From positions 1 to 27,629 of IMG/VR virus record IMGVR_UViG_3300017788_000136: 27,629 nucleotides of DNA; one strand, written 5' to 3'. The notes beneath the pieces were generated by a model, which made no database searches, was not told the origin of the DNA, and saw only the letters and a program-made list of their open reading frames with translations. Position numbers and translations under genes: made by a program. This DNA comes from a virus. Positions 6,800 to 27,531 of the stretch are shown here, one piece after another. The first letter of the stretch is position 1, and the number at the start of each line of letters is the position of its first letter.

Positions 6800-7018
6800 A
6801 TGATGAATAAACCAGAGCAACCAGAACAGGCAATCGGGGTAAGACTCATACTGCCAAGCGGATGCAAGATACTTGTCGGGCCACGGGATTTAGTGGCAGA
6901 AGAAGTAGCAAGGCTTATCCACTTGGAATCAGACCTCGGCGGTTCGTTCTACGAATACTTTCAACCACAAGGAGAAAACCATGAAGGAAGTAACACCGTA
7001 TCGGCGCTTAATCATTGA
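6800..7018 (+). CDS. Small hypothetical protein
   Basis: A protein of about 72 residues. The ATG at 6800 is preferred to TTG 6794, with ATG 6803 as a further option; a short AGGT lies upstream. A small mixed alpha/beta domain is suggested by GVRLILPSGCKILVGPRDLVAEEVARLI, but the family is not known. Its 3' end overlaps the start of the WhiB gene by 38 bases and contains that gene's Shine-Dalgarno sequence, so the two are probably coupled. Confidence 0.6.
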   Translation: MMNKPEQPEQAIGVRLILPSGCKILVGPRDLVAEEVARLIHLESDLGGSFYEYFQPQGENHEGSNTVSALNH

Positions 7019-7310
7019 GCCGAATACCAACTGGAAAGACAAGGCTCTGTGCATTGGCATGGATGCTGACATTTTCTTTCCAGAGCGAGATGGTCAGCCG
7101 ATTCAAGGCGGTAGGGGTATCTACAGCAAGGCACGCAAAGTCTGCGAAAGATGCCCAGTTCGTGCCGAGTGTCTGAACTACGCATTTCATTTCAATATGA
7201 TTGAGTTCGGAATGTTCGGTGGAATGGCGCCGAAAGAACGCAAAGAACATTTCACTCGCCTGCGCCAGTTGTTGAAGTCAATCAAGGCGCACACAGAAAG
7301 CAAGTCGTAA
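6981..7310 (+). CDS. WhiB-family Fe-S regulator (first copy)
   Basis: A protein of 109 residues with AAGGAG at 6969-6974. It has the WhiB arrangement of four cysteines: Cys24 in KALC, then Cys55-x2-Cys58-x5-Cys64 in VCERCPVRAEC, followed by a Gly-rich turn FGMFGGM in place of the usual G(V/I)WGG, and a basic C-terminus. WhiB-like proteins bind a 4Fe-4S cluster and act with the primary sigma factor; they are almost restricted to Actinobacteria and their phages, where some repress host whiB genes. The region between Cys24 and Cys55 carries a short insertion compared with compact family members. A second, divergent copy lies at 16883-17179. Confidence 0.92.
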   Translation: MKEVTPYRRLIIEPNTNWKDKALCIGMDADIFFPERDGQPIQGGRGIYSKARKVCERCPVRAECLNYAFHFNMIEFGMFGGMAPKERKEHFTRLRQLLKSIKAHTESKS

Positions 7311-16403: not shown

Positions 16404-16902
16404 TAACAACATCGTCATTGGCATTGACCCTTCTGCCACTCACATAGCATTCGTCATCTTCTATCCGAATGAGACTTGGGAAGTGGTAGCCGCCAAGAAA
16501 CTAGGCAAAAGCGGCCCCGAATCGTGTTGTCAGGCTAGGCTCTTGACGCTGGCTACCATTGACAAGGCGAGGAAGACATGGAAAGACGGAATAGTTCACT
16601 GCTTCTACGAACTCCCCGTTCTTGGTCGTGGCGGTTTCCGTTCCACCATTGTTCAGTGCTTCACTTCTGGCGCTGTTCAAGGTGCGATACATGAGAGGGA
16701 ATGTTCGTCGTACACGGTCAATGTCTCAAGTTGGAAAAAAGCGGTGGTGGGCAAAGGAAACGCTGACAAATCCCAAGTCGCAGAATTTTTACGACTGCGA
16801 TGGAATGCTCTCTACACAGCGGCAGAAGGAAATCAAGACATCTACGACGCTACCGCCATTGCCCTCTACGGAAGACAAATACTTGCGAAGGGAGTGGCGT
16901 AA
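16396..16902 (+). CDS. ruvC: RuvC-like Holliday junction resolvase
   Basis: A protein of 168 residues starting eight bases inside the previous gene. The RNase H-like fold carries the four expected carboxylates: Asp11 in IGIDPSAT, Glu72 in YELPV, and Asp148 with Asp151 in DIYDATAIALYG. VVGKGNADKSQV (117-128) matches the RuvC segment that contacts the junction. The length is close to the bacterial 170. It would resolve recombination intermediates before packaging. Together with the Hjc-like nuclease, this phage seems to encode two different resolvase types. Confidence 0.88.
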   Translation: MGDNNIVIGIDPSATHIAFVIFYPNETWEVVAAKKLGKSGPESCCQARLLTLATIDKARKTWKDGIVHCFYELPVLGRGGFRSTIVQCFTSGAVQGAIHERECSSYTVNVSSWKKAVVGKGNADKSQVAEFLRLRWNALYTAAEGNQDIYDATAIALYGRQILAKGVA

Positions 16903-17179
16903 ACTTGCGCTTTGCCACGACAAGACGCCCCAGTTCTTTCGCCATCGCTGTTCAAATAAATGCCTTGTTCACGCCGATTGCTGCGAGCGTGTTCGCACCG
17001 TCAGGGTGTGCAAAGAACTATGCTCACAGTGTCCAGTCCTAGAACATTGTAGGATTTGGGCGATTCAAACGAATCTAATCAAGGGCATCGCTGGCGGGAT
17101 GACCGAGATAGAAAGAAATCAAGTAAGGCAAATCATCCTAGGAGACAACCATGACGACGAACCAGATTCTTGGAACTAA
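16883..17179 (+). CDS. WhiB-family Fe-S protein (second, divergent copy)
   Basis: A protein of 98 residues from TTG 16883, chosen because GGAAG (16870-16874) is well spaced and because WhiB proteins usually begin just before the WRxLALC motif; ATG 16805 would add an N-terminus that reads like shadow sequence of the resolvase gene. Cysteines are Cys11 (LALC), Cys47-x2-Cys50-x5-Cys56 (LCSQCPVLEHC), followed by GIAGGM in place of G(V/I)WGG. Five further Cys residues (23, 27, 33, 34, 43) lie in an insertion between the first and second ligands, which is unusual and might bind another metal. Possible roles are control of host or phage promoters through the primary sigma factor. Confidence 0.8.
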   Translation: MRREWRKLALCHDKTPQFFRHRCSNKCLVHADCCERVRTVRVCKELCSQCPVLEHCRIWAIQTNLIKGIAGGMTEIERNQVRQIILGDNHDDEPDSWN

Positions 17180-18524
17180 AACCGAGATTGTTGACATTGA
17201 CACACTGAAGGGTTACGACAAGAATCCACGCAAAGGCAACATCGCTGCCATTGCCGACTCGCTTCAAGTGAATAAGCAGTACCGCCCGATTGTCGTACAG
17301 AAATCCAGCAAAAAGATTCTGGCGGGCAATCACACTTGGCAGGCGGCAAAGAAGTTGGGGTGGACTCAGATTGCGGTTGTGTTCGTGGATGTTGATGATG
17401 ACGGGGCGAAGCGAATCGTGCTGGCTGACAACCGAACCAACGACCTAGCGGATTATGACACAACCATTCTGGCGGAGTTGTTGAAAGACTTGGGAAGTTC
17501 CAGCGGTACGGGCTATTCGGAACAAGACATGGAAACCATCATGAACGCAACCGCAGCAGAGGTTGAACAAGTAATCTGGGCATCCAATACCGCTGGAGAA
17601 GAAACGCTTGCGCAGAACGACCCGCTTATCGGGGTGTCGCAGTCGTTTGCCGACAGCGAAAGGGATGACGGTTTCGGCGCAGAGTTGGGCGGCAGTGAAG
17701 AAGATGAGTCGGATGTTGAGAACAAGCCCGATGACTTGAGTGGCGTTTACACACTGAAAGATGACCTTATCTTTCCAGGGGCAACTTTCTGGGAAATACC
17801 GTATCTCCGTGAAGACATGTTGATTGAAGAACTTCCGCAACCATTACACACTTGGGCTGGCAGCGCCACCAGAGACATTGGATGGGAAGGCTATTGGCTT
17901 TACAACTGGGGTATTGACAGCACTTCGGGGATGAAAGACCTGAGCAAGATAATGATTTCGTTCTACACTTGGGATGAATACATTGACCCGTGGTGGGATA
18001 ACCCTGTCAGCCACATGAGCAAGGTCATCCATTCAAAAATCAAGTACGCCATCACACCGAACTTCACGCCGAACGACATGCCACGAACGGCATCGCTTTG
18101 GCAGTTGTATCGTTCACGCTGGATTGGGCGATACTTGCAGGAAGTCGGTGTGCGAGTGATGCCCGACCTTCAGATTCGTGAAGAAGATGAGTTCGTTGAA
18201 ATAGCGTCAAAGACCTATCCGAAGCGGCTTCCGTGGGCGGCTATTCAAACGCAGAACCTTGTAGGCTCACAGCGAACCGACATCAAGATTACGGAAGCGG
18301 AAGCGGCTGAACATCGCAAGTGGACTCTGAAATCCGTTCGTGTTGCGAATCCAGAGAATCTGCTCGTCTATGCGCATCCGAAGCAGCACGACCAGATGAA
18401 GGAGTTCTTCGGTCACGGAAAGGAACGGAATGTCTACTGTATTCCGACTCGCCTGTTCTATTTGTCAAAGAAGGTTCGCAAGACGCTTCCGAAGCCTGGA
18501 GAGGCATACGACGACGAAGACTAA
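17151..18524 (+). CDS. ParB-like domain fused to DUF4417
   Basis: A protein of 457 residues overlapping the WhiB gene by 29 bases. Residues about 10-105 form a ParB/Srx-like domain: DTLKGYDKNPRKG, PIVVQKSSKKILAGNHTWQAAKKLG with GNHTWQAA standing for the usual GxxR box, then VFVDVDDDGAKRIVLADNR. After an acidic linker (about 165-196), residues about 200-425 match the DUF4417 pattern, including SKIKYAITPNFTPNDMP, ASLWQLYRSRWIGRYLQEVGVRVMPD and a late FFGHGKERNVYCIPT. ParB-like domains in phages may be CTP-binding or nuclease modules; DUF4417 has no known function. The gene lies where the terminase genes often stand, at the entry to the head module. Confidence 0.75.
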   Translation: MTTNQILGTKTEIVDIDTLKGYDKNPRKGNIAAIADSLQVNKQYRPIVVQKSSKKILAGNHTWQAAKKLGWTQIAVVFVDVDDDGAKRIVLADNRTNDLADYDTTILAELLKDLGSSSGTGYSEQDMETIMNATAAEVEQVIWASNTAGEETLAQNDPLIGVSQSFADSERDDGFGAELGGSEEDESDVENKPDDLSGVYTLKDDLIFPGATFWEIPYLREDMLIEELPQPLHTWAGSATRDIGWEGYWLYNWGIDSTSGMKDLSKIMISFYTWDEYIDPWWDNPVSHMSKVIHSKIKYAITPNFTPNDMPRTASLWQLYRSRWIGRYLQEVGVRVMPDLQIREEDEFVEIASKTYPKRLPWAAIQTQNLVGSQRTDIKITEAEAAEHRKWTLKSVRVANPENLLVYAHPKQHDQMKEFFGHGKERNVYCIPTRLFYLSKKVRKTLPKPGEAYDDED

Positions 18525-18542
18525 CCATTGACGCATTAGTTG

Positions 18543-18638
18543 ATGATTGCCTTAATGGAGTTTGCGTCGTATTGTGTTGCTCGCCACAAGAAGTGGCAGA
18601 AAGAATCAGGCAATCAACATGGGTATCAAACTGTTTGA
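18543..18638 (+). CDS. Possible micro-protein (31 residues)
   Basis: ATG 18543 opens a short frame (MIALMEFASYCVARHKKW...) that ends at 18638, overlapping the next gene by 20 bases; ATG 18555 is an alternative. It fills most of the gap after the ParB-like gene and has a protein-like composition, but no ribosome site is obvious and there is nothing to compare it with. Low confidence. Confidence 0.25.
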   Translation: MIALMEFASYCVARHKKWQKESGNQHGYQTV

Positions 18639-18831
18639 CATCGCTGGTCTCAGCACCGATGATGTCGTTGTCAGCGGCGCAGGCGGCGGTGGTGGCAAGA
18701 CCAAAGGTGGTAAGCGGGGCAACAAGCGGGGCAACAAGCGGGGCAACAAGCGGGGCAACAAGGGTCGTGGCCCGAAGGGTCGCACCCGCGCAAGGGGCGG
18801 CACCAAGCGAAGGGGCGCTCGTCGCCGCTAA
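18619..18831 (+). CDS. Small, highly basic protein with GNKR repeats
   Basis: A protein of 70 residues from ATG 18619. Residues 1-20 look like a small hydrophobic-helical head (MGIKLFDIAGLSTDDVVV), followed by five Gly and a tail in which about half of the last 45 residues are Lys or Arg and none is acidic. The tail contains four perfect tandem copies of a four-residue unit encoded by a 12-base repeat. Histone-like, protamine-like or RGG-type nucleic-acid binding is plausible, for instance condensing DNA in the virion. It lies between the ParB-like gene and two hairpins, just before the portal gene. No family is recognised. Confidence 0.65.
   Translation: MGIKLFDIAGLSTDDVVVSGAGGGGGKTKGGKRGNKRGNKRGNKRGNKGRGPKGRTRARGGTKRRGARRR
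18712..18759 (+). repeat. Four perfect tandem 12-base repeats
   Basis: The unit AAGCGGGGCAAC occurs four times without a mismatch and encodes Lys-Arg-Gly-Asn. Perfect identity at the DNA level suggests recent expansion by slippage, so the copy number may vary between related phages. Confidence 0.9.
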
Positions 18832-18861
18832 TTCCTAATCCGCAGTAGCGGATGAAGGAAT
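18831..18861 (+). other. Hairpin immediately after the basic-protein stop
   Basis: ATTCCT (18831-18836) pairs with AGGAAT (18856-18861) and ATCCGC (18838-18843) with GCGGAT (18848-18853), leaving an AGTA tetraloop and a small internal bulge. The 12-pair hairpin begins within the stop codon; only A-rich sequence follows, so alone it is not a standard terminator, but it stands in front of the terminator-like stem below. Confidence 0.6.
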
Positions 18862-18982: not shown

Positions 18983-20377
18983 TTGGCTGACAAAGACTTA
19001 TTCCGTGAGGCTGGTTCCACTGGACTAAGGCGAACTTCTGGCTACATTTTTGAAGAGTTCCTGCCGCAGTTGCAGGGATACCGAGCCATCAACACCTACC
19101 GTGAAATGCGGGATAACGACCCAGTTGTTGGTGCGATTCTATTCGCCATTGACAAACTCGTTCGCCAAGTGCAGTGGCGTGTTCAATCTGCGACTGGTTC
19201 GGTTGAAGATAAGCGGGCGGCGAAGTTCGTTGAATCATGCATGAACGACATGAGTACTTCTTGGGAAGATACCATCAGCGAAATACTCACGATGCTTCCT
19301 TACGGTTGGTCGCTGCATGAAATCGTGTACAAGCGTCGTCAAGGCAATGAAGAAACTTCCGTAGGGGAGAACCGTTCCAAGTACGATGACGGTCTTATCG
19401 GCTGGAGGAAGTTGCCGATTCGTGCGCAAGACACACGCCAAGAGTGGATTTTTGACGACAACGGCGGCATTCGTGGAATGGTGCAGTCAGCCCCGCCAGA
19501 CTTCACGCTTCGCACCATTCCGATTGAGAAGGCTCTTCTGTTTAGAACGACTTCTGACAAGAACAATCCTGAAGGGCGTTCAATTCTGCGCAACGCCTAT
19601 CGCCCGTGGTATTTCAAGCGCCGCATTGAAGAAATAGAAGCCATCGGCGTTGAGCGTGACCTTGCTGGATTTCCAGTGATGTATGTTGACCCAGAAATCA
19701 TGCGAACGGATGCTTCAGCCATTGCGCAGTCAATCTATGGAGATTACAAGGATGCGGTTCGCAACATTCGTCGTGACCAGCAAGAAGGAATGATTCTTCC
19801 AGCCATCTACGATGACAAGAACAACCTGCTCTACCGCCTTGAACTGATTTCGGCTGGAGGAAGCAGACAGTTTGACACGGACAGAATCATCACTCGCTAC
19901 GACCAGCGGATTGCTACCAGCGTTCTAGCCGACTTCATCTTGCTCGGCCAGTCAGCGAACGGAAGTTATGCGCTCTCATCAGACAAGACGAACCTGTTCG
20001 CCATTTCGCTGCGGTGCTGGCTAGAAATCATCCGTACCGTATTCAACCAGTTCGCCATTCCACGATTGTTCGGTGTCAACGGGTTTGATGTCAAGAATTT
20101 GCCGACTATTGAGTACGGCGACATTGAAGCGCCACCATTGGGTGAACTCGGCAACTACATTCAGGTTCTTGCTGGTGCAGGAGTTCCGCTGTTTCCAGAT
20201 GACAATCTTGAAAATCACTTGCGCTCGCTTGCCAAGTTGCCTGAAAAGCGTGAGAGTGCGAAAGGTGACATGCAGGCTGTTCAACAGGAACAGGCGGTTG
20301 CTAGACCACGCAATAATGCGGCACAGCCAGCGGAACCTTCTCCACCAGCAAAGCCGCAAAAGCCGATTCTGGAGTAA
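18983..20377 (+). CDS. Portal protein (DUF935/Mu gp29-like)
   Basis: A protein of 464 residues with a TTG start preceded by TAGGAG around 18968-18973. The family pattern is clear: YREMRDNDPVVGAILFAIDKLVRQVQW near the N-terminus, LPYGWSLHEIVYKRR, a RTIPIEKALLFRTTSDKNNPEGRSILRNAYRPWYFKRR block that is the portal signature, then YDQRIATSVLADFILLGQ and a C-terminal Pro/Ala-rich, disordered tail. It forms the dodecameric ring through which DNA enters and leaves the capsid. It is followed without a gap by the MuF-type gene, the normal order in phages with SPP1/Mu-like heads. No terminase gene precedes it. Confidence 0.9.
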   Translation: MADKDLFREAGSTGLRRTSGYIFEEFLPQLQGYRAINTYREMRDNDPVVGAILFAIDKLVRQVQWRVQSATGSVEDKRAAKFVESCMNDMSTSWEDTISEILTMLPYGWSLHEIVYKRRQGNEETSVGENRSKYDDGLIGWRKLPIRAQDTRQEWIFDDNGGIRGMVQSAPPDFTLRTIPIEKALLFRTTSDKNNPEGRSILRNAYRPWYFKRRIEEIEAIGVERDLAGFPVMYVDPEIMRTDASAIAQSIYGDYKDAVRNIRRDQQEGMILPAIYDDKNNLLYRLELISAGGSRQFDTDRIITRYDQRIATSVLADFILLGQSANGSYALSSDKTNLFAISLRCWLEIIRTVFNQFAIPRLFGVNGFDVKNLPTIEYGDIEAPPLGELGNYIQVLAGAGVPLFPDDNLENHLRSLAKLPEKRESAKGDMQAVQQEQAVARPRNNAAQPAEPSPPAKPQKPILE

Positions 20378-22411
20378 GTGATGCCGATTCGTGGCATCCG
20401 AGGACAGGCGCTGGCAGATGAACTGCTTGCCGCTTATGATGCGCTTGAAGAGATGTTCCGTGACGCTTTTCTTCAACAGATTGCCACTCTTTCCAGAAGT
20501 CGTGCGTTGAAGGATTTGCTGGATGAGATTGATGCTGGCGACCTGTCGTTTGGCGACCCGATTGATTCAAGGCTGGAATCGCTTGTCATTTCGCAAAAGA
20601 GGCTTGACGACATTGTTGAAGCGGCGATGGAAACTGGTGCGAGAGTAACGCAGAAAGTTGTTGATGTCGGCGGAGAGTTCAATGTTCTTAATCCAGCGGT
20701 TCGGAACACGGCGAATAATCTTTCTGTCCAGTTGTCTACGACACTCAACAGTGTCACTAGGCAAACCATTAGCGACATTCTGCGAGATGCTATTGAAGGC
20801 AACATCACGACGCTTCAAGCGGCGAGGAAGATAAGGTCGCACATTGGCTTGCTTCCACAGCACTCAAAAGCCGTTGACAAGTACCTGAACAAGATGCTCG
20901 CTGACGGTGTTGCTAAACGGTTGGCGAATAAGCGTGCGGATGAGTATGCCGAACGGCTGTTGAAGTACCGAAGCGAAACCATTGCCAGAACCGAAATCGC
21001 TCGTGCTATGGGGGAAGGTCAAACAGAGTATTGGAAGCAGATGGCATCAGAAGGCTATTTGCCGCCGAACGCAAAGCGGATTTGGATGACTTCAAGAGAT
21101 GAACTTGTTTGTCCTATCTGCGGCCCGATGGATGGCGTAGAAGCAGACATTGACGGGTATTGGACTACCATCAACGGCGAAGCGTTTGCCTATCCGCAGG
21201 CTTCTCACCCGAACTGCCGCTGTTCTTCTGGAATCGTGTTTCCGAAAGGTTCGGTGTCTAAATCCACCATTGAAAAAGCAAATCCCTACCATGACGAACG
21301 AGGTCGTTTTACTTCCGCAAACAACGCAGTTAGTGGGCGTGGTGGTCGTTCTACTTATGCCGAACGCCGTTCACGCTCACGCAGTAAAAAAGGTGCGAAT
21401 GTTCGCTATCACACCATTAGCGATTCTAAGCGGCTTGCCGCTGTTGAGCAGAAAGCCGTTGACGGTAGTTCTGCTTTGCTAATGCCTCGCCATCCAGAAT
21501 ACGGAACCGCTCAAACATTGCCGCTTGATGAAGCGAAGAAACGGTATGGGCGAACCACTGAAGAAGTTAGAAGGTCAATCAACAGGATTCTTGGGGTGAC
21601 GCAGAATGCCGTTTCTATTGAACCGAAGTTTGCGAAATCCAAGTATGCGCTTGAAGAAATGTTGGGTGTTGCGCAGGCGCTTGAAGAAGCGAAAGCCATG
21701 GGGATTAATGTCAGGCTTTTGAATATTAACTTTACTAATGCTCCAGGATTGTCAGATGGCAAATATTCAACTACATACAGGCGCTCGGAAATCCAATCGG
21801 GAACAATAGAAATGAACACAAGAGGCAAAGGTGCTGGAACTTATCCAACCGCATCTGACTTGTCGCTGTTTGACCCGAAAGGTATGCGTGGCGCAGTTGT
21901 TCCAAATACGATGGGCGTTGAGAACACACAGGATGTTGGTATGGTGGGTGTTCCTAAATCTGCGCCAAAACAAGTTGCTCAGAAAGGTGCTTATGCGGTG
22001 ATGATACATGAGATAGGTCATCATTTGACAATGGGAACTATGGGTATTCCTGCCGCTTCCAGCGCTTCTAGGTTGTTTAGAGAATACAAAAATTCGCTTC
22101 CTTCAAACTACGCTCGGAAAGATAAGCATGAAATGCTTGCGGAGGGTTTTGCCGCTTGGTGGCTTATGGGCGGAAGCAAGAACCCGACCATCAAAGAGTA
22201 TTACCGTGGCTGGCTTCCTGTCGTAACCTACATCATTCACGGTGAGGGTAGTGGTGCCAACTCGCTTGCTTCTAGGAAGTCAGAAATACTCAAGTCTTCT
22301 AGTGTGTACATTGAGTCGGTCACAGGAATACGCATCAATGAACTTCCGCCCGACCATCCGATTATTGTCTGGCTTACCAATGGCGCTAGCCTTCAACGAG
22401 TAGGATACTGA
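20378..22411 (+). CDS. MuF/SPP1 gp7-type head protein fused to a C-terminal HExxH metallopeptidase-like domain
   Basis: A protein of 677 residues. Residues 1-295 form the Phage_Mu_F head-morphogenesis domain, ending with RTEIARAMGEGQTEYW, CPIC (Cys245-Cys248) and the closing SHPNCRC. The motif NPYHDERGRFTSAN lies at residues 302-315, then a basic low-complexity linker and a new C-terminal domain. That domain has MIHEIGHHLT (His544, Glu545, His548) and, 40 residues on, EMLAEGFAAWW with Glu589 as the likely third zinc ligand, an arrangement resembling anthrax-lethal-factor-like and other gluzincin peptidases. MuF domains fused to variable toxin or enzyme tails are known as MuF polymorphic toxins. 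The peptidase could be packaged in the capsid and injected; its substrate is unknown. Confidence 0.85.
   Translation: MMPIRGIRGQALADELLAAYDALEEMFRDAFLQQIATLSRSRALKDLLDEIDAGDLSFGDPIDSRLESLVISQKRLDDIVEAAMETGARVTQKVVDVGGEFNVLNPAVRNTANNLSVQLSTTLNSVTRQTISDILRDAIEGNITTLQAARKIRSHIGLLPQHSKAVDKYLNKMLADGVAKRLANKRADEYAERLLKYRSETIARTEIARAMGEGQTEYWKQMASEGYLPPNAKRIWMTSRDELVCPICGPMDGVEADIDGYWTTINGEAFAYPQASHPNCRCSSGIVFPKGSVSKSTIEKANPYHDERGRFTSANNAVSGRGGRSTYAERRSRSRSKKGANVRYHTISDSKRLAAVEQKAVDGSSALLMPRHPEYGTAQTLPLDEAKKRYGRTTEEVRRSINRILGVTQNAVSIEPKFAKSKYALEEMLGVAQALEEAKAMGINVRLLNINFTNAPGLSDGKYSTTYRRSEIQSGTIEMNTRGKGAGTYPTASDLSLFDPKGMRGAVVPNTMGVENTQDVGMVGVPKSAPKQVAQKGAYAVMIHEIGHHLTMGTMGIPAASSASRLFREYKNSLPSNYARKDKHEMLAEGFAAWWLMGGSKNPTIKEYYRGWLPVVTYIIHGEGSGANSLASRKSEILKSSSVYIESVTGIRINELPPDHPIIVWLTNGASLQRVGY
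21281..21322 (+). repeat. DERGRF motif, copy 1 (in the MuF fusion)
   Basis: Encodes NPYHDERGRFTSAN exactly between the MuF domain and the metallopeptidase domain. It is preceded by IEKA. Confidence 0.9.
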
Positions 22412-22727: not shown

Positions 22728-24188
22728 ATGTCTGAAGTGGCGGCTGGAACCATCGTAAAGATTGATGCCGACAGAAAACTTGTGTTCGGCTGGGCTTCGG
22801 TGATAAAGGACACCTCCGATAAAGTTCTGCTTGACCGCCAAGACGACTTCATTGACTCCGAAGACGAACTTGAAAAAGCCGCATACGAGTATGTTCTGAA
22901 GTCACGGGATGGCGGAGAAATGCACATCCGCAAAGGCGTTTCAACAATGGTGGAGTCGGTGGTGCTTTCCAAAGAAAAGCAGGCGGCTCTCGGTATTCCT
23001 GCTGGGGTGATTCCTGTTGGCTGGTGGGTTGGCTTCAAAGTGAATGATGACAGGGTGTGGGGCGAAGTGAAGAAGGGTGGCTATGTCGGTTTCAGTGTTC
23101 ATGGAACTGGAAAGCGGCAGACAACCGACATGCCGATTGACAAGATTACGGAGATAGAAAAGTGCGGATGTGACGATTCGGCGGTGGCTTTGCCGCAAAT
23201 TGCTAAGAGAGATGATAGGTATTGGGATTTGATGAATCGTGCGCAAATGGCGGTTGTTGTGACTGCTATTGAGAAAGCAAAAAAGCGCAATAGCAAGGTC
23301 GCAGTCGTAATGCGAAAGTCTAAGCGTGCCGTGTCAAAAGGCGATTTTCCAGGTCATCCGTTCCGTGGCAATCAGTGGACTCGTGGCAAAGGCGGTGCTG
23401 GCGGTGGCAAGGCTGGCGGTAAGCCGAAGATGAAGCGTGGCTCTGACAAAGAGATAACTTTCGCTGGTGGTCGCTCTGGAAGTGTTCGTGAAGCGGCAAA
23501 GAGATTGATGGATGGCGAAGAGATTGACATGCCGAATGTCAAAGGTGCGCACACTCTCATTAAAAAGTTGGCAAAAGTTGCTACGGAGATGGAAAAGAGT
23601 GGCGAAAAACTCGTCTATGACTTGTGCAAGGTGACTGTCAAAGGGGCTAGCGCTTTCTGCGGTGGCAATAAAGGGATTGACCGAGCAGACATGCCACAAG
23701 CGAAGGGTGAAGTAGTCAAAGGTTCAAAGGCAGACAAAGCACTGAAAAAACAGAATGCCAAACGCAAAGCGAAAGGCAAAGACCCGAAGGATGAATATGA
23801 TGCGACCAGCGAGTTCATTGCGCACATGGAAAAGCGAGGAATCAAGGTAGGCAAGCCAACGACGGTGCGTGCCGACAAACTGAAAGCAACTCAGCGCAAT
23901 ATGGAAGGTCAAAAAGTCGCTGGGATGATGACGGCGAAAGACAAGAAGTTTCTCAAAGAACCAATTTTTGTTTCTCGTGACGGTTATGTTGTAGACGGCC
24001 ACCATCGCTGGGCGGCTGTTCTCGGACTTGACATGAAGGATGGAAAGTTGGGTAATGATTATCGCCAGAATGTTCGTGTGATTGATGCGCCCATTAGCAA
24101 GATTCTGAAGGAAGCCAACAGGTTCACATCTCAGTTCGGCATCAAGCGAAAGACGGTTGCCGCAAGCAAGAAGAAAAAGAAGAGGTAG
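22728..24188 (+). CDS. XkdF-type prohead protease fused to a ParB-like domain
   Basis: A protein of 486 residues with no good Shine-Dalgarno sequence before ATG 22728. Residues about 1-165 match the XkdF/Peptidase_S78_2 putative serine protease: RKLVFGWASV, DRQDDFIDSEDELEKAAYEYV, GEMHI, PVGWWVGFKVND and GYVGFSVHGTG. At residue 209 begins GHPFRGNQWTRG, a motif that in position and style matches the DERGRF motif of its neighbours, followed by a Gly/Lys-rich linker. The C-terminal domain (about 370-470) is ParB-like: KPTTVRADKLKATQ, then PIFVSRDGYVVDGHHRWAA with the GHHRW box at 424-428. Prohead proteases mature the capsid and often cleave themselves, so the ParB-like part may be released as cargo. 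The length far exceeds that of a simple XkdF protein. Confidence 0.82.
   Translation: MSEVAAGTIVKIDADRKLVFGWASVIKDTSDKVLLDRQDDFIDSEDELEKAAYEYVLKSRDGGEMHIRKGVSTMVESVVLSKEKQAALGIPAGVIPVGWWVGFKVNDDRVWGEVKKGGYVGFSVHGTGKRQTTDMPIDKITEIEKCGCDDSAVALPQIAKRDDRYWDLMNRAQMAVVVTAIEKAKKRNSKVAVVMRKSKRAVSKGDFPGHPFRGNQWTRGKGGAGGGKAGGKPKMKRGSDKEITFAGGRSGSVREAAKRLMDGEEIDMPNVKGAHTLIKKLAKVATEMEKSGEKLVYDLCKVTVKGASAFCGGNKGIDRADMPQAKGEVVKGSKADKALKKQNAKRKAKGKDPKDEYDATSEFIAHMEKRGIKVGKPTTVRADKLKATQRNMEGQKVAGMMTAKDKKFLKEPIFVSRDGYVVDGHHRWAAVLGLDMKDGKLGNDYRQNVRVIDAPISKILKEANRFTSQFGIKRKTVAASKKKKKR
23352..23387 (+). repeat. HPFRGNQW motif in the prohead protease
   Basis: Encodes GHPFRGNQWTRG between the protease and the ParB-like domain. 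The order aromatic or His-Pro, Arg-Gly, aromatic, Thr is similar to NPYHDERGRFTSAN elsewhere in the module, though not close enough to prove common descent. Confidence 0.6.
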
Positions 24189-24190
24189 TC

Positions 24191-24607
24191 ATGGCGAAGC
24201 CAAGTGGCGGTCTTACTCGCTGGTTCAAAGAGAACTGGGTAGATTTGTCTCGCCCCAAGAAAGGTGGCGGTTATGAACCGTGTGGTCGCCGTGATGCGAG
24301 TAAAGGTAAGTATCCGAAGTGTGTTCCAGCATCAAGGGCTTCATCCATGTCTCAAGAACAGATTCGTTCTGCGGTTAGCCGTAAACGCAGGGCTGAAAGC
24401 ACAGGCGGCAGAAAGGGTAAGAAACCGATTATGGTAAGCACCATTAAGAAGAGCAAGAATGTGCCGACGAATGCCAAGTTGTACGCCAGAGTAAAGGCAG
24501 CGGCAAAGGCAAAATTTGATGTCTACCCATCGGCGTATGCGAACGGCTGGCTCGTTCAGGAATACAAGCGTCGTGGTGGAAAGTTCAAGAGTGTGAAGCG
24601 TGGCTAG
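24191..24607 (+). CDS. DUF5872-like basic protein
   Basis: A protein of 138 residues, two bases after the protease stop. The N-terminal LTRWFKENWVDLSRPKKGGGYEPCGR followed by GKYPKCVPASRASSMS matches a conserved phage and viral domain I know as DUF5872; the C-terminal YPSAYANGWLVQEYKRRGGKF is its usual companion. The two Cys (in EPCGR and PKCVP) could hold a metal or disulfide. It is very basic. A structural or DNA-associated virion role is likely from its place in the head module, but no activity is known. It overlaps the next gene by eight bases. Confidence 0.75.
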   Translation: MAKPSGGLTRWFKENWVDLSRPKKGGGYEPCGRRDASKGKYPKCVPASRASSMSQEQIRSAVSRKRRAESTGGRKGKKPIMVSTIKKSKNVPTNAKLYARVKAAAKAKFDVYPSAYANGWLVQEYKRRGGKFKSVKRG

Positions 24608-26597
24608 GGTTTCCAAGCGGAATCCGTATCACGACGAAAGAGGTCGTTTTACTTCGGCAAATGCGGCAGTAGGCGGCTCTGGTGGTCGTGCTAGAAGGGT
24701 GCGCACCATTAAGCCAGCGCCGAGAAAGCGTGGCAAGAAAAATGGAAAGCGCAAAGCCGATTACAAGGAACGGATTGCTCGGATTGATGAAAAGATTGAT
24801 GACCTAGTTGACTCAAAAAACAATCTGTTTGACCCGATGACTGGAAGGTCGGTTGGTGGTGGAGTGATGAACCGTAGGACTGGAAAGCCAGCGAAAGGTT
24901 CAAAGAGGCTTACGGAAGGCGAAAAGACGGCGGCTGCTGTGAAGAGGCAGCAGGCTGAATATCGGCGTAAGATGAAGGCTCTGCAAGACAAGCGAACTGA
25001 AGTGATGGGCGATGCGGCAAGAGCCGCTGCAAAGCGCCAGAAAAAGGCGGAAGCGAAGCAGGCTCGTGAAGCGGCTTATCAGAAGCGACCAAAGAGCAAG
25101 AAGCGCATTGAGCAAAGCCGCCAATTTAGTGAGCGTTTGCGGCAGAAGATGTTCTCTTCTCCAGCCGAACAACTTCGCCAGTTGCGTGCCGCTTCGGATG
25201 CTCCAGCGGATTTAGTGTTTCGGCAACCGAAGCCACCTAAGAGAGATAGAAAAAGGAAGCGGGGATGGGTTGGCAAGGTGTATGTCGGTGATTTAGAGTT
25301 GGTGGCTGTGCCTGCTTTGTCTAAAAACAACCCGACTTCTAGCGATGTGCATTTGCCGACCATCATGAACCGCAAGAAGAAGCGAACGAGGAAGATGATG
25401 CTTGAAGACATTGTGGAGAAGAATGCGAAACTTAAAAACCCGAAGGGTGGTCTCACCGCTGCTGGTCGTCGCCATTTCAAGCGGAAGGAAGGTGCAAATC
25501 TGAAGCCAGGAGTGAAGGGTAAGGCGGATACGCCTGAGAAGATGCGGCGTAAAGGTTCTTTCCTTACCCGCTTCTTCACGAACCCTTCTGGCCCGATGAA
25601 GAACGATAAGGGTGAACCAACACGGCTTGCTCTTTCGGCTGCGGCTTGGGGTGAACCTGTTCCGAGAGATAGGGCTTCGGCGGCTCGTCTTGCTGCGAAG
25701 GGTCGTAGTTTGCTTCAGCGTTATGAGAATCGGAAGAAGGTTGAAAAAGCGAATCCGTATCACGATGAGCGTGGCAGGTTTACTTCCGCCAATGCCGCAG
25801 TTGGCGGTGCTGGGATGCGTAGCGGTGGTAAGAAGCGTAGCGGTGGCAGAAAATTAAGCAGAACTGGTGGTGCATCAAAGAGGCCATCGGTAAAGCGTGG
25901 CAGTTCAGAAGAACGAAGTGACTATCCAACTCCAGAAAAAATAGCAGAAGTTAGAGCGTGGATGGCCAGCAGGAAAGAATTCCCTTCTGAAGTTCGTAGC
26001 ATGGAGCGTGCTTTTGAAGCGCTAAAGAAAAAGTCGGCAGATGCAATGCTCAAAGACTACGACAAGATGTACAACAAAGCGGTAAAAAATAATTCTCCAG
26101 ACCCGCAAGATGAAGCAAGCGCAATGTTTACCACGAAGTACAAGGCGAGCGTGCTGGCTGTTGAAAATGCCGCAATGCTTATTTCAACAAGCATGGGCGA
26201 GAGAACAAGTCATACAATCTCTTCGGAAGGTGGTAGGTCAAAACTTTCTTCTAAAGAACGGCGAGCAAGGCGTGACCAACGCAATGCCGAACAGCGTGAT
26301 GCTTTTGACACTCTTGTTTCACGAACTGGGCAAATGAAATCCAGGATTGAACCGAAGAATGCTCGTGATAAAGCGAAAGCGAAGAAGGTTCGTGACTACA
26401 TGACTCCTGCCGCCAAGCGGTTCAAGAATCCGAAGCATCGTGCCTATGCGCTTGAGCGAATCAAGCAGATGACTAGCGGCAAGGCACGACCAGATGGGAT
26501 GTCAAAGCCCTACGGTATGTCTGCGGCGGATGTTCGCACTTTTGAGGCTGTTTTGGGTAGAATATTTAAGAGTGGAAGGTTGAAGTATGGCATCTGA
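24600..26597 (+). CDS. Large basic head-module protein with two DERGRF motifs
   Basis: A protein of 665 residues from GTG 24600, overlapping the previous gene. It starts almost at once with DERGRF motif copy 2 (residues 8-21), followed by a Lys/Arg-rich helical region (about 30-210) with coiled-coil character. Residues about 280-375 form a conserved phage domain, NPKGGLTAAGRRHFKRK to MRRKGSFLTRFFTNPSGPM and LALSAAAWGEPVPRDRA, that I tentatively match to DUF6321. Motif copy 3 (385-398) follows, then a helical domain with MLKDYDKMYN at 483 that is repeated in the next gene, and a C-terminal part with KNPKHRAYALERIKQM. The order suggests two cargo units joined in one chain, each led by the motif. 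The function is unknown. Confidence 0.78.
   Translation: MARVSKRNPYHDERGRFTSANAAVGGSGGRARRVRTIKPAPRKRGKKNGKRKADYKERIARIDEKIDDLVDSKNNLFDPMTGRSVGGGVMNRRTGKPAKGSKRLTEGEKTAAAVKRQQAEYRRKMKALQDKRTEVMGDAARAAAKRQKKAEAKQAREAAYQKRPKSKKRIEQSRQFSERLRQKMFSSPAEQLRQLRAASDAPADLVFRQPKPPKRDRKRKRGWVGKVYVGDLELVAVPALSKNNPTSSDVHLPTIMNRKKKRTRKMMLEDIVEKNAKLKNPKGGLTAAGRRHFKRKEGANLKPGVKGKADTPEKMRRKGSFLTRFFTNPSGPMKNDKGEPTRLALSAAAWGEPVPRDRASAARLAAKGRSLLQRYENRKKVEKANPYHDERGRFTSANAAVGGAGMRSGGKKRSGGRKLSRTGGASKRPSVKRGSSEERSDYPTPEKIAEVRAWMASRKEFPSEVRSMERAFEALKKKSADAMLKDYDKMYNKAVKNNSPDPQDEASAMFTTKYKASVLAVENAAMLISTSMGERTSHTISSEGGRSKLSSKERRARRDQRNAEQRDAFDTLVSRTGQMKSRIEPKNARDKAKAKKVRDYMTPAAKRFKNPKHRAYALERIKQMTSGKARPDGMSKPYGMSAADVRTFEAVLGRIFKSGRLKYGI
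24621..24662 (+). repeat. DERGRF motif, copy 2
   Basis: Encodes NPYHDERGRFTSAN near the N-terminus of the large basic protein, followed by a Gly-rich AAVGGSGGR. Confidence 0.9.
25752..25793 (+). repeat. DERGRF motif, copy 3
   Basis: Encodes NPYHDERGRFTSAN in the middle of the large basic protein, preceded by VEKA and followed by AAVGGAGMRSGGKK, as in copy 4. Confidence 0.92.
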
Positions 26598-27531
26598 ACA
26601 GCCAGACATTACTGAAGCGGAGTTGGAAGAAATCTACGACAAGGCGGAACCGTTTGATTCTGAGGAAGAAATGGATGCAGCCATTGACCAGTTGAATGCC
26701 TACTTCGCTCTTGCGAAATCTGCGTTGAAGATAGAGCGAACAATAAACATTAGGCGCAGTGAAACAGTTGAGAAGGCGAATCCGTACCATGATGAAAGAG
26801 GCAGGTTTACTTCTGCGAATGCCGCTGTCGGTGGTGCTGGTATGCGTAGTGGTGGAAAGAAACTATTTCTTAGGCGTGGTCAAAAGAGTCGTAGAAGTAA
26901 AACGACTTCTGAAGAAAATCGCCAGTTGCTTCAGAGGCAAGCGGATGGAACTAAGACAAGGGCGGAAGCGCAGGGTGTAGAAACTGGTGTGTATGCCATA
27001 AATGCTGCTAGGCGTGGCACAAAAATGGATGCGGCGCAGGCTGGCAAGAAAATGCTCAAAGATTATGACAAGATGTACAACAGCGCCGTCAAGCGTAATG
27101 ACCCCGACCCGCAAGGTGCTGCCGATGCTGCGTTTACTAAAAAGTATCGTGCGACTGTTCTTCAGGTTGAAAATGTGTTGAGTCTTATTGGCGATGTACC
27201 AAGTGGTATTTCAATTACCAGAGTTGTTGGCGCCATGCAGAGTCCACGAAGCAGAGACACAAAACTTAGCGCTGAAGGATTGCGTAGCGGTAGTGCCGAC
27301 AGAAAATCGTTTTCTGCGGCTCGTCGTGCCGCTTCAAGGGTTCCAGATTCTGAAACTGGATACGGAAGAGAAAGAGTTACGCTTGGTCGTGGTGGTGGCG
27401 GAAAGTCTAAGGGGCGAGGTGGCAAAGCACGGCGCAAAAGCAATATGGTGCCAAAGCGGATGAAAAGCAAGTCTGGTAGAGCGCGCAAAATGCGGGGCGG
27501 TACTCTTATCAGGCGACCCGACAGTGATTAA
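26587..27531 (+). CDS. Paralogue of the C-terminal part of the preceding protein, with DERGRF motif
   Basis: A protein of 314 residues overlapping the preceding gene by 11 bases. An acidic helical N-terminus (residues 1-60, with ELEEIYDKAEPFDSEEEMD) leads to VEKA and motif copy 4 (residues 65-78). A basic linker follows, then a domain starting MLKDYDKMYN at residue 156 that aligns with the preceding protein for about 40 residues with most positions identical (AVK, PDPQ, FT-KY, VL-VEN shared), and a very basic Gly/Lys/Arg-rich C-terminus (from about 240). It appears to be a duplicated cassette whose N-terminus was replaced by an acidic segment. A virion or cargo protein is likely; the activity is unknown. 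Confidence 0.78.
   Translation: MASEQPDITEAELEEIYDKAEPFDSEEEMDAAIDQLNAYFALAKSALKIERTINIRRSETVEKANPYHDERGRFTSANAAVGGAGMRSGGKKLFLRRGQKSRRSKTTSEENRQLLQRQADGTKTRAEAQGVETGVYAINAARRGTKMDAAQAGKKMLKDYDKMYNSAVKRNDPDPQGAADAAFTKKYRATVLQVENVLSLIGDVPSGISITRVVGAMQSPRSRDTKLSAEGLRSGSADRKSFSAARRAASRVPDSETGYGRERVTLGRGGGGKSKGRGGKARRKSNMVPKRMKSKSGRARKMRGGTLIRRPDSD
26779..26820 (+). repeat. DERGRF motif, copy 4
   Basis: Encodes NPYHDERGRFTSAN with the same flanks as copy 3 (VEKA before, AAVGGAGMRSGGKK after). Confidence 0.92.

Follow-up and report, generated by a model that had tools for sequence, protein, structure and literature searches.

A short peptide tag in three interchangeable classes at head/effector module boundaries of tailed viruses

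Encapsulin cargo-loading peptides are short peptides that dock unrelated cargo inside an HK97-fold shell. How head-carried proteins are chosen in most tailed phages is, to our knowledge, understood only for a few models. The T4 internal proteins IPII and IPIII and the N-terminal 30 residues of P1 DarB supply capsid-targeting signals that can be transferred to foreign proteins (PMC9958956, PMC9024508). Polyvalent proteins and MuF polymorphic toxins carry ADP-ribosyltransferase, MPTase, 2H and LPD domains fused to MuF or portal (PMC5512222, PMC5576092). The window analysed here (27,629 nucleotides, the whole of the stretch taken from viral record IMGVR_UViG_3300017788_000136) encodes head proteins joined to cargo of this kind, with a short peptide at the joints.

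Head genes of the window and their tags

The window contains four tags of class t1 (one behind MuF, two in the DUF6321 protein and one in the last protein) and one of class t2; all features given below are on the + strand. The portal protein (18983–20377; Portal_Mu, PF06074, E 3e-35) is followed by the MuF minor head domain (20378–21268; PF04233, phrog_3517 head morphogenesis), by tag copy 1 (t1, 21269–21322), which is the recombination junction with the related loci L006 and L007, and by a metallopeptidase-like cargo (21323–22411) with an HEIGHH motif and a weak PF07737 match under the cut-off (E 0.0013). Matches of the PF07737 type also occur in the MPTase domains of polyvalent proteins (PMC5512222). 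In the AlphaFold (AF2) model of this MuF protein, confidence is high to about residue 289 and falls over the tag. The next tagged protein (22728–24188) combines an XkdF head protease domain (PF14550, E 5e-19) with a ParB-like cargo akin to large virion proteins of Pseudomonas phages, the t2 tag VSKGDFPGHPFRGNQWT (23331–23381) lying between them. Behind the DUF5872 protein (24191–24607), whose L008 homologue bears a t1 tag, ORF 24600–26597 has tag copy 2 (t1, 24609–24662) at residues 4–21 and tag copy 3 (t1, 25740–25835) directly behind its DUF6321 domain (25434–25649), a domain that is followed by t1, t2 or t3 tags in homologues. Copy 3 consists of the core VEKANPYHDERGRFTSAN (25740–25793) and a Gly-rich linker. 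Copy 4 (t1, 26767–26862; core 26767–26820) occupies residues 61–92 of the last protein (ORF 26587–27531). In the window proteins, Pfam, PHROGs and NCBIfam assign the tag to no family, and neither a fold search nor a search of solved structures gave a match. The AlphaFold models of XkdF and MuF are too weak, except over the MuF domain and some of the ParB-like domain, to place the tag in an active site.

Other features of the window lie upstream. A ParB-N + DUF4417 protein (17151–18524) precedes the portal, as do its homologues in L274, L275, L281 and L194, and short tandem repeats at 18320–18838, between the DUF4417 gene and the portal, read SGATSGAT or KRGNKRGN in different frames. Two ORFs (6981–7310 and 16622–17179) look WhiB-type from their cysteine pattern judged by eye, which suggests an actinobacterial host.

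The peptide VEKANPYHDERGRFTSANAAVGGAGMRSGGKK is encoded at both 25740–25835 and 26767–26862. A codon-by-codon comparison of copies 3 and 4 confirms what an initial sequence-only reading had noticed: all 32 residues are identical and 15 of the 32 codons differ, every difference being synonymous. The coordinates in that reading (25743–25838 and 26770–26865) were one codon late, so that its segments begin at E and end on R in one copy vs L in the other. Similarity is lost immediately on either side of the 32 residues. Chance does not account for the match: all 32 residues agree, whereas 19.9 ± 2.6 codons would be expected to differ if synonymous codons were fully randomised according to this genome's usage. 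With 15 differing, the silent sites of the two copies are near saturation, and this rules out a recent DNA copy. Silent divergence selected to block recombination between the two copies was also considered and is not needed, since the observed 15 fall below the expected 19.9.

About 100 residues downstream, the two proteins share a second, paralogous cargo block (26043–26186 behind copy 3 and 27049–27192 behind copy 4) in which 32 of 48 residues are identical. Its silent divergence (pS = 0.70) equals that of the tag (pS about 0.68), yet 16 of its 48 residues have changed against none of 32 in the tag (Fisher P = 1e-4); the tag peptide was therefore held while its DNA drifted. Among all four t1 tags of the window pS is 0.62–0.85, that is, most silent sites differ, and the peptides hardly differ. 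The sequence-only reading had taken copies 3 and 4 for an old duplication rather than a recent DNA copy. The second half of this stands, and an old duplication does fit the two copies because their cargo blocks are paralogous, but cassette exchange also operates at the tag, as the junction with the relative L006 falls inside it.

Three classes of tag and their distribution

The 32 shared residues are one instance of a short interchangeable peptide tag and not merely a local repeat. A degenerate DNA pattern for NPYHDxxGRF, run over viral contigs, yielded more than 100 stretches, with up to 13 distinct tags within one genome group, and over 100 contigs have the t1 core (consensus [VIL]xK[FAY]NPYHDExGRF[TAS][TS]A) on unrelated proteins. 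Across 181 distinct tags, conservation extends from about −4 to +13 around NPYHD and includes positions that the search had left free (V/I/L at −4, K at −2, F/A/Y at −1, T/A/S at +10). It fades in the Gly-rich linker, so the proposal of strong selection over the linker is not supported and the linker identity of copies 3 and 4 is local to this lineage. Class t2 ([VIL]xKGDxxGHPFRGNQ[YW]T) has the same layout as t1. Class t3 emerged, as KHGxHDQSSHGSWA, when MuF-seeded loci were searched without bias for recurring peptides; its consensus is KHGxHDQ[SK][ST]HG[NS]WA. Hidden Markov models of the three classes, which gave no match of at least 12 bits in shuffled proteins, place tags in 30 of 80 MuF-seeded and 14 of 41 XkdF-seeded loci; the tag is thus not universal. 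Only one class is present in 217 loci and two classes in 13, the former number overstating class separation because most of those loci were fetched by a class-specific pattern. In several two-class loci XkdF keeps t2 and the remaining proteins use t1 or t3. Tags on unrelated cargo within a genome resemble each other (0.713 vs 0.580 when shuffled), but the linker control behaves partly alike (0.177 vs 0.100), and a within-genome ‘dialect’ beyond the class level is only suggestive. Two side observations may concern further tags: XkdF loci without t1–t3 (L289, L305) carry SAFGVDDxRISKA or SAFGVDHG on two or three of their proteins, and GGQFCETGGGSG is repeated in three proteins of the MuF locus L243.

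In genome scans t1 was found in contigs labelled Beijerinckiaceae, Bradyrhizobium, Chryseobacterium, Clostridia and Singulisphaera, and it is present near the C-terminus of the portal in the archaeal Nitrososphaera provirus Pro-Nvie1. The phage MW202897 has t1 on its portal and HK97 protease and none on its major capsid protein. A phage collection searched with short consensus tags returned three records only, and none for t3. Searched by terms, the papers on polyvalent proteins and MuF toxins (PMC5512222, PMC5576092) yielded no mention of the motif, and none of the tag strings turned up in a phage context in the open literature searched. We provisionally regard the tag as previously undescribed.

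The three classes are equivalent and replace one another at homologous positions, all three behind DUF6321 and MuF, and t1 and t2 behind XkdF. The homologous ends of DUF6321 (LAAKGRSLLxRYE) are followed by NPYHDERGRF in the window, NTNHDNLGRF in L275, GHPFRGNQ in L281 and SKHGSHDQSTH in L277. Homologous MuF ends are followed by WLLSKFNPYHDELGRF (L053), WVISKGDYVGHPFRGNQW (L280) or WLISKHGRHDQKTHG (L277), and at the XkdF position some phages have t2 and others t1. The putative major capsid proteins of L277 (t3) and L281 (t2) are 90% identical, so there is no obvious sign that the class depends on the capsid protein. XkdF domains that are 64–82% identical likewise occur alongside all three classes.

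Selection on the peptide, as the sequence-only reading had proposed, is supported by the retention of the core on unrelated proteins in so many contigs and by the nearly unchanged peptides of the window tags at the pS values given above. The dN/dS contrast between tag and flanks that it had suggested as a check came out mixed. It is present in the motif-fetched loci with alignable flanks (pN/pS 0.19 in tags vs 0.42 in flanks), a comparison biased by residues that the search had fixed. In loci mostly fetched via other genes it is not significant [0.315 (0.257–0.379) vs 0.355 (0.315–0.401)]; here t3 dominates. The requirement for alignable flanks itself favours conserved flanks, and length variants of t3 are misaligned by the ungapped comparison. 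Judged from sequence, the case for selection rests on the core persisting across unrelated proteins at near-saturated silent sites and not on orthologue dN/dS. A common recognising partner for the tag is plausible.

Module boundaries and exchange of cargo

Tags sit at the ends of portal, MuF or protease domains where cargo begins, or near the N-terminus of stand-alone cargo. The protein segments flanking them form 29 clusters on the N-side and 86 on the C-side. The N-side comprises several portal families, MuF, XkdF, DUF2213 and HK97 protease. C-side partners include ADP-ribosyltransferases, ART-PolyVal, LPD3, Zeta toxin, 2H/RNA ligase, topoisomerase IB, GNAT and metallopeptidase, among others, and most of the 86 cargo clusters have no Pfam match. 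Homology between tagged proteins breaks within 15 residues of the tag in 53 of 133 cases (19.8 ± 4.0 expected). In 72 of 181 t1 tags the NPYHD core begins no more than 70 residues from the earliest possible start codon, in many cases at residue 7–30; the others are internal, and long polyproteins have 5–7 tags between their domains. In some portals and proteases (L065, L086, L278, L279) the tag is near the end with no further domain behind it, and in the Nitrososphaera provirus portal the tail after the tag is about 45–50 residues; the tag can thus stand without attached cargo. In L275, L277 and L284 the genes with tags occupy the interval from portal or MuF to the putative major capsid or decoration genes; L281 has a single exception.

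Comparison with L006 catches the exchange at one joint. The DNA of the window is 98.8% identical to L006 through MuF up to the tag (MuF itself 99%), behind which L006 has another cargo. The cargo of the window's MuF is in L006 a separate next gene with its own N-terminal tag (94.8%), and the window lacks the approximately 700 bases that separate the two tags of L006, the switch point being inside the tag. By this gene comparison the window joins a MuF domain to an exchangeable effector, the metallopeptidase-like cargo, which is the arrangement of MuF polymorphic toxins and polyvalent proteins. The core of the MuF tag differs from that of L006 at 6 of 36 bases, more than the flanks do (P = 0.01), an excess that exchange among tags could explain. 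A leader MKLExYFxRLPxFGYYN precedes the tag in both L006 (3073–4281) and L008 (7719–8519) and the cargo behind differs, so that the three parts, leader, tag and cargo, behave as modules.

Sorting and processing as possible roles, and known targeting signals

The tag exists as a distinct peptide, recurs on unrelated proteins in three replaceable classes, and marks the boundaries between head and effector modules. We put at about even chances the proposal that it is a transplantable sorting signal for proteins inside the phage head, of the T4/P1 kind, and perhaps a protease site too. A short, probably unstructured segment before the cargo would present a positively charged K, then H-D/P, then G-R/N/S and an aromatic residue, and the reader, we infer, would be some prohead component that these phages share. 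Gene context suggests that tagged proteins, stand-alone or fused to portal, MuF or protease, would be incorporated into the head; they would then be delivered with the DNA into the next cell, and a head protease may remove the tag. Cargo cassettes would be swapped at the tag, by which one genome would gather copies with the peptide kept and the silent sites different. On the side of sorting we count the flanking head proteins and effectors, the N-terminal positions, the cargo that is fused in the window and alone in L006, class replacement, the homology breaks at tags, the cargo-less tags, the gene order of the head module and the T4/P1 precedent. Counted against it are the lack of universality and the different classes of L277 and L281 with their near-identical capsids. 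In addition, cargo already fused to portal or MuF should need no targeting signal, and a terminal tag with no cargo behind it may be what is left after a cargo was lost.

A rival reading is processing, in which the head maturation protease would cut at the tag and free cargo from portal, MuF, protease or polyproteins in the prohead for ejection. We think this rather unlikely. Sorting and processing can coexist, as in T4, where the N-terminal segment combines targeting and cleavage according to the passages of PMC9958956 and PMC9024508 that cite Mullaney and Black (1996). What speaks for processing is that tags sit at fusion joints and inside polyproteins, that the head proteases are themselves tagged behind the catalytic domain, and that portal-fused cargo would need release before injection. 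By contrast, N-terminal tags on stand-alone cargo and tags that end portals or proteases with little behind them favour sorting; a cut at the latter would release almost nothing. The untagged capsid protein of MW202897, the one capsid protein looked at for a tag, may also speak against processing; the similar XkdF domains that go with all three classes do so too. XkdF (PF14550) is no commoner in tag-bearing records not fetched via it (16 of 35) than in the MuF-seeded controls (18 of 32), which with few exceptions lack t1 and t2, several of them carrying t3, and other protease families may have been missed in this count. ClpP and S49 proteases were found in none of the 22 tag-bearing records without a clear XkdF match, and a DUF2213 search is uninformative, with no match in any record, controls included. 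XkdF was also considered as a specific reader of the tag and set aside, as it is not enriched in tag-bearing records.

Sorting is preferred over processing. A flexible hinge, kept because recombination there swaps cargo and read by no protein, would account for the L006 switch inside the tag, the clustered homology breaks and the little secondary structure predicted over the tag in low-confidence regions of the models. It is improbable, since a DNA hinge would require conserved DNA and a free peptide, the reverse of what the silent sites reveal, and the core K, H, G and aromatic residue are far more specific than a linker requires. More improbable still, the basic aromatic peptide might bind packaged DNA or the portal channel and guide cargo out with the genome; its basic composition and its presence on the same class of head and injected proteins fit this, and sequence alone cannot tell it from sorting.

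A broader generalisation is possible, though doubtful: a degenerate code (K...H...G-x-aromatic) common to tailed viruses of bacteria and archaea would mark head-loaded, injected proteins, new cargo being recruited by recombination at the tag. Any domain gaining the tag would then join the injected set. With a recognisable tag, candidates for head cargo (possibly anti-defence proteins and toxins) could be listed straight from sequence, domains of no known family included, and cargo selection becomes a simple tag-reporter question.

Among described systems, encapsulin cargo-loading peptides differ from the tag in sequence and position, and near-identical putative capsids go with different classes here; the likeness is one of analogy only. 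The likeness to polyvalent proteins and MuF toxins lies in the same kinds of cargo domain on MuF or portal, although the tag that accompanies them here goes unmentioned in those papers as judged by term searches. To the T4 and P1 capsid-targeting signals the tag is similar, as we read it, in general layout: a short segment, N-terminal in stand-alone cargo, on proteins apparently carried in the head. Unlike those signals, it is also internal or C-terminal, occurs on portal, MuF and protease with many copies per genome, and comes, with a function so far predicted, in three replaceable classes spread over many phages and, as t1, an archaeal provirus.
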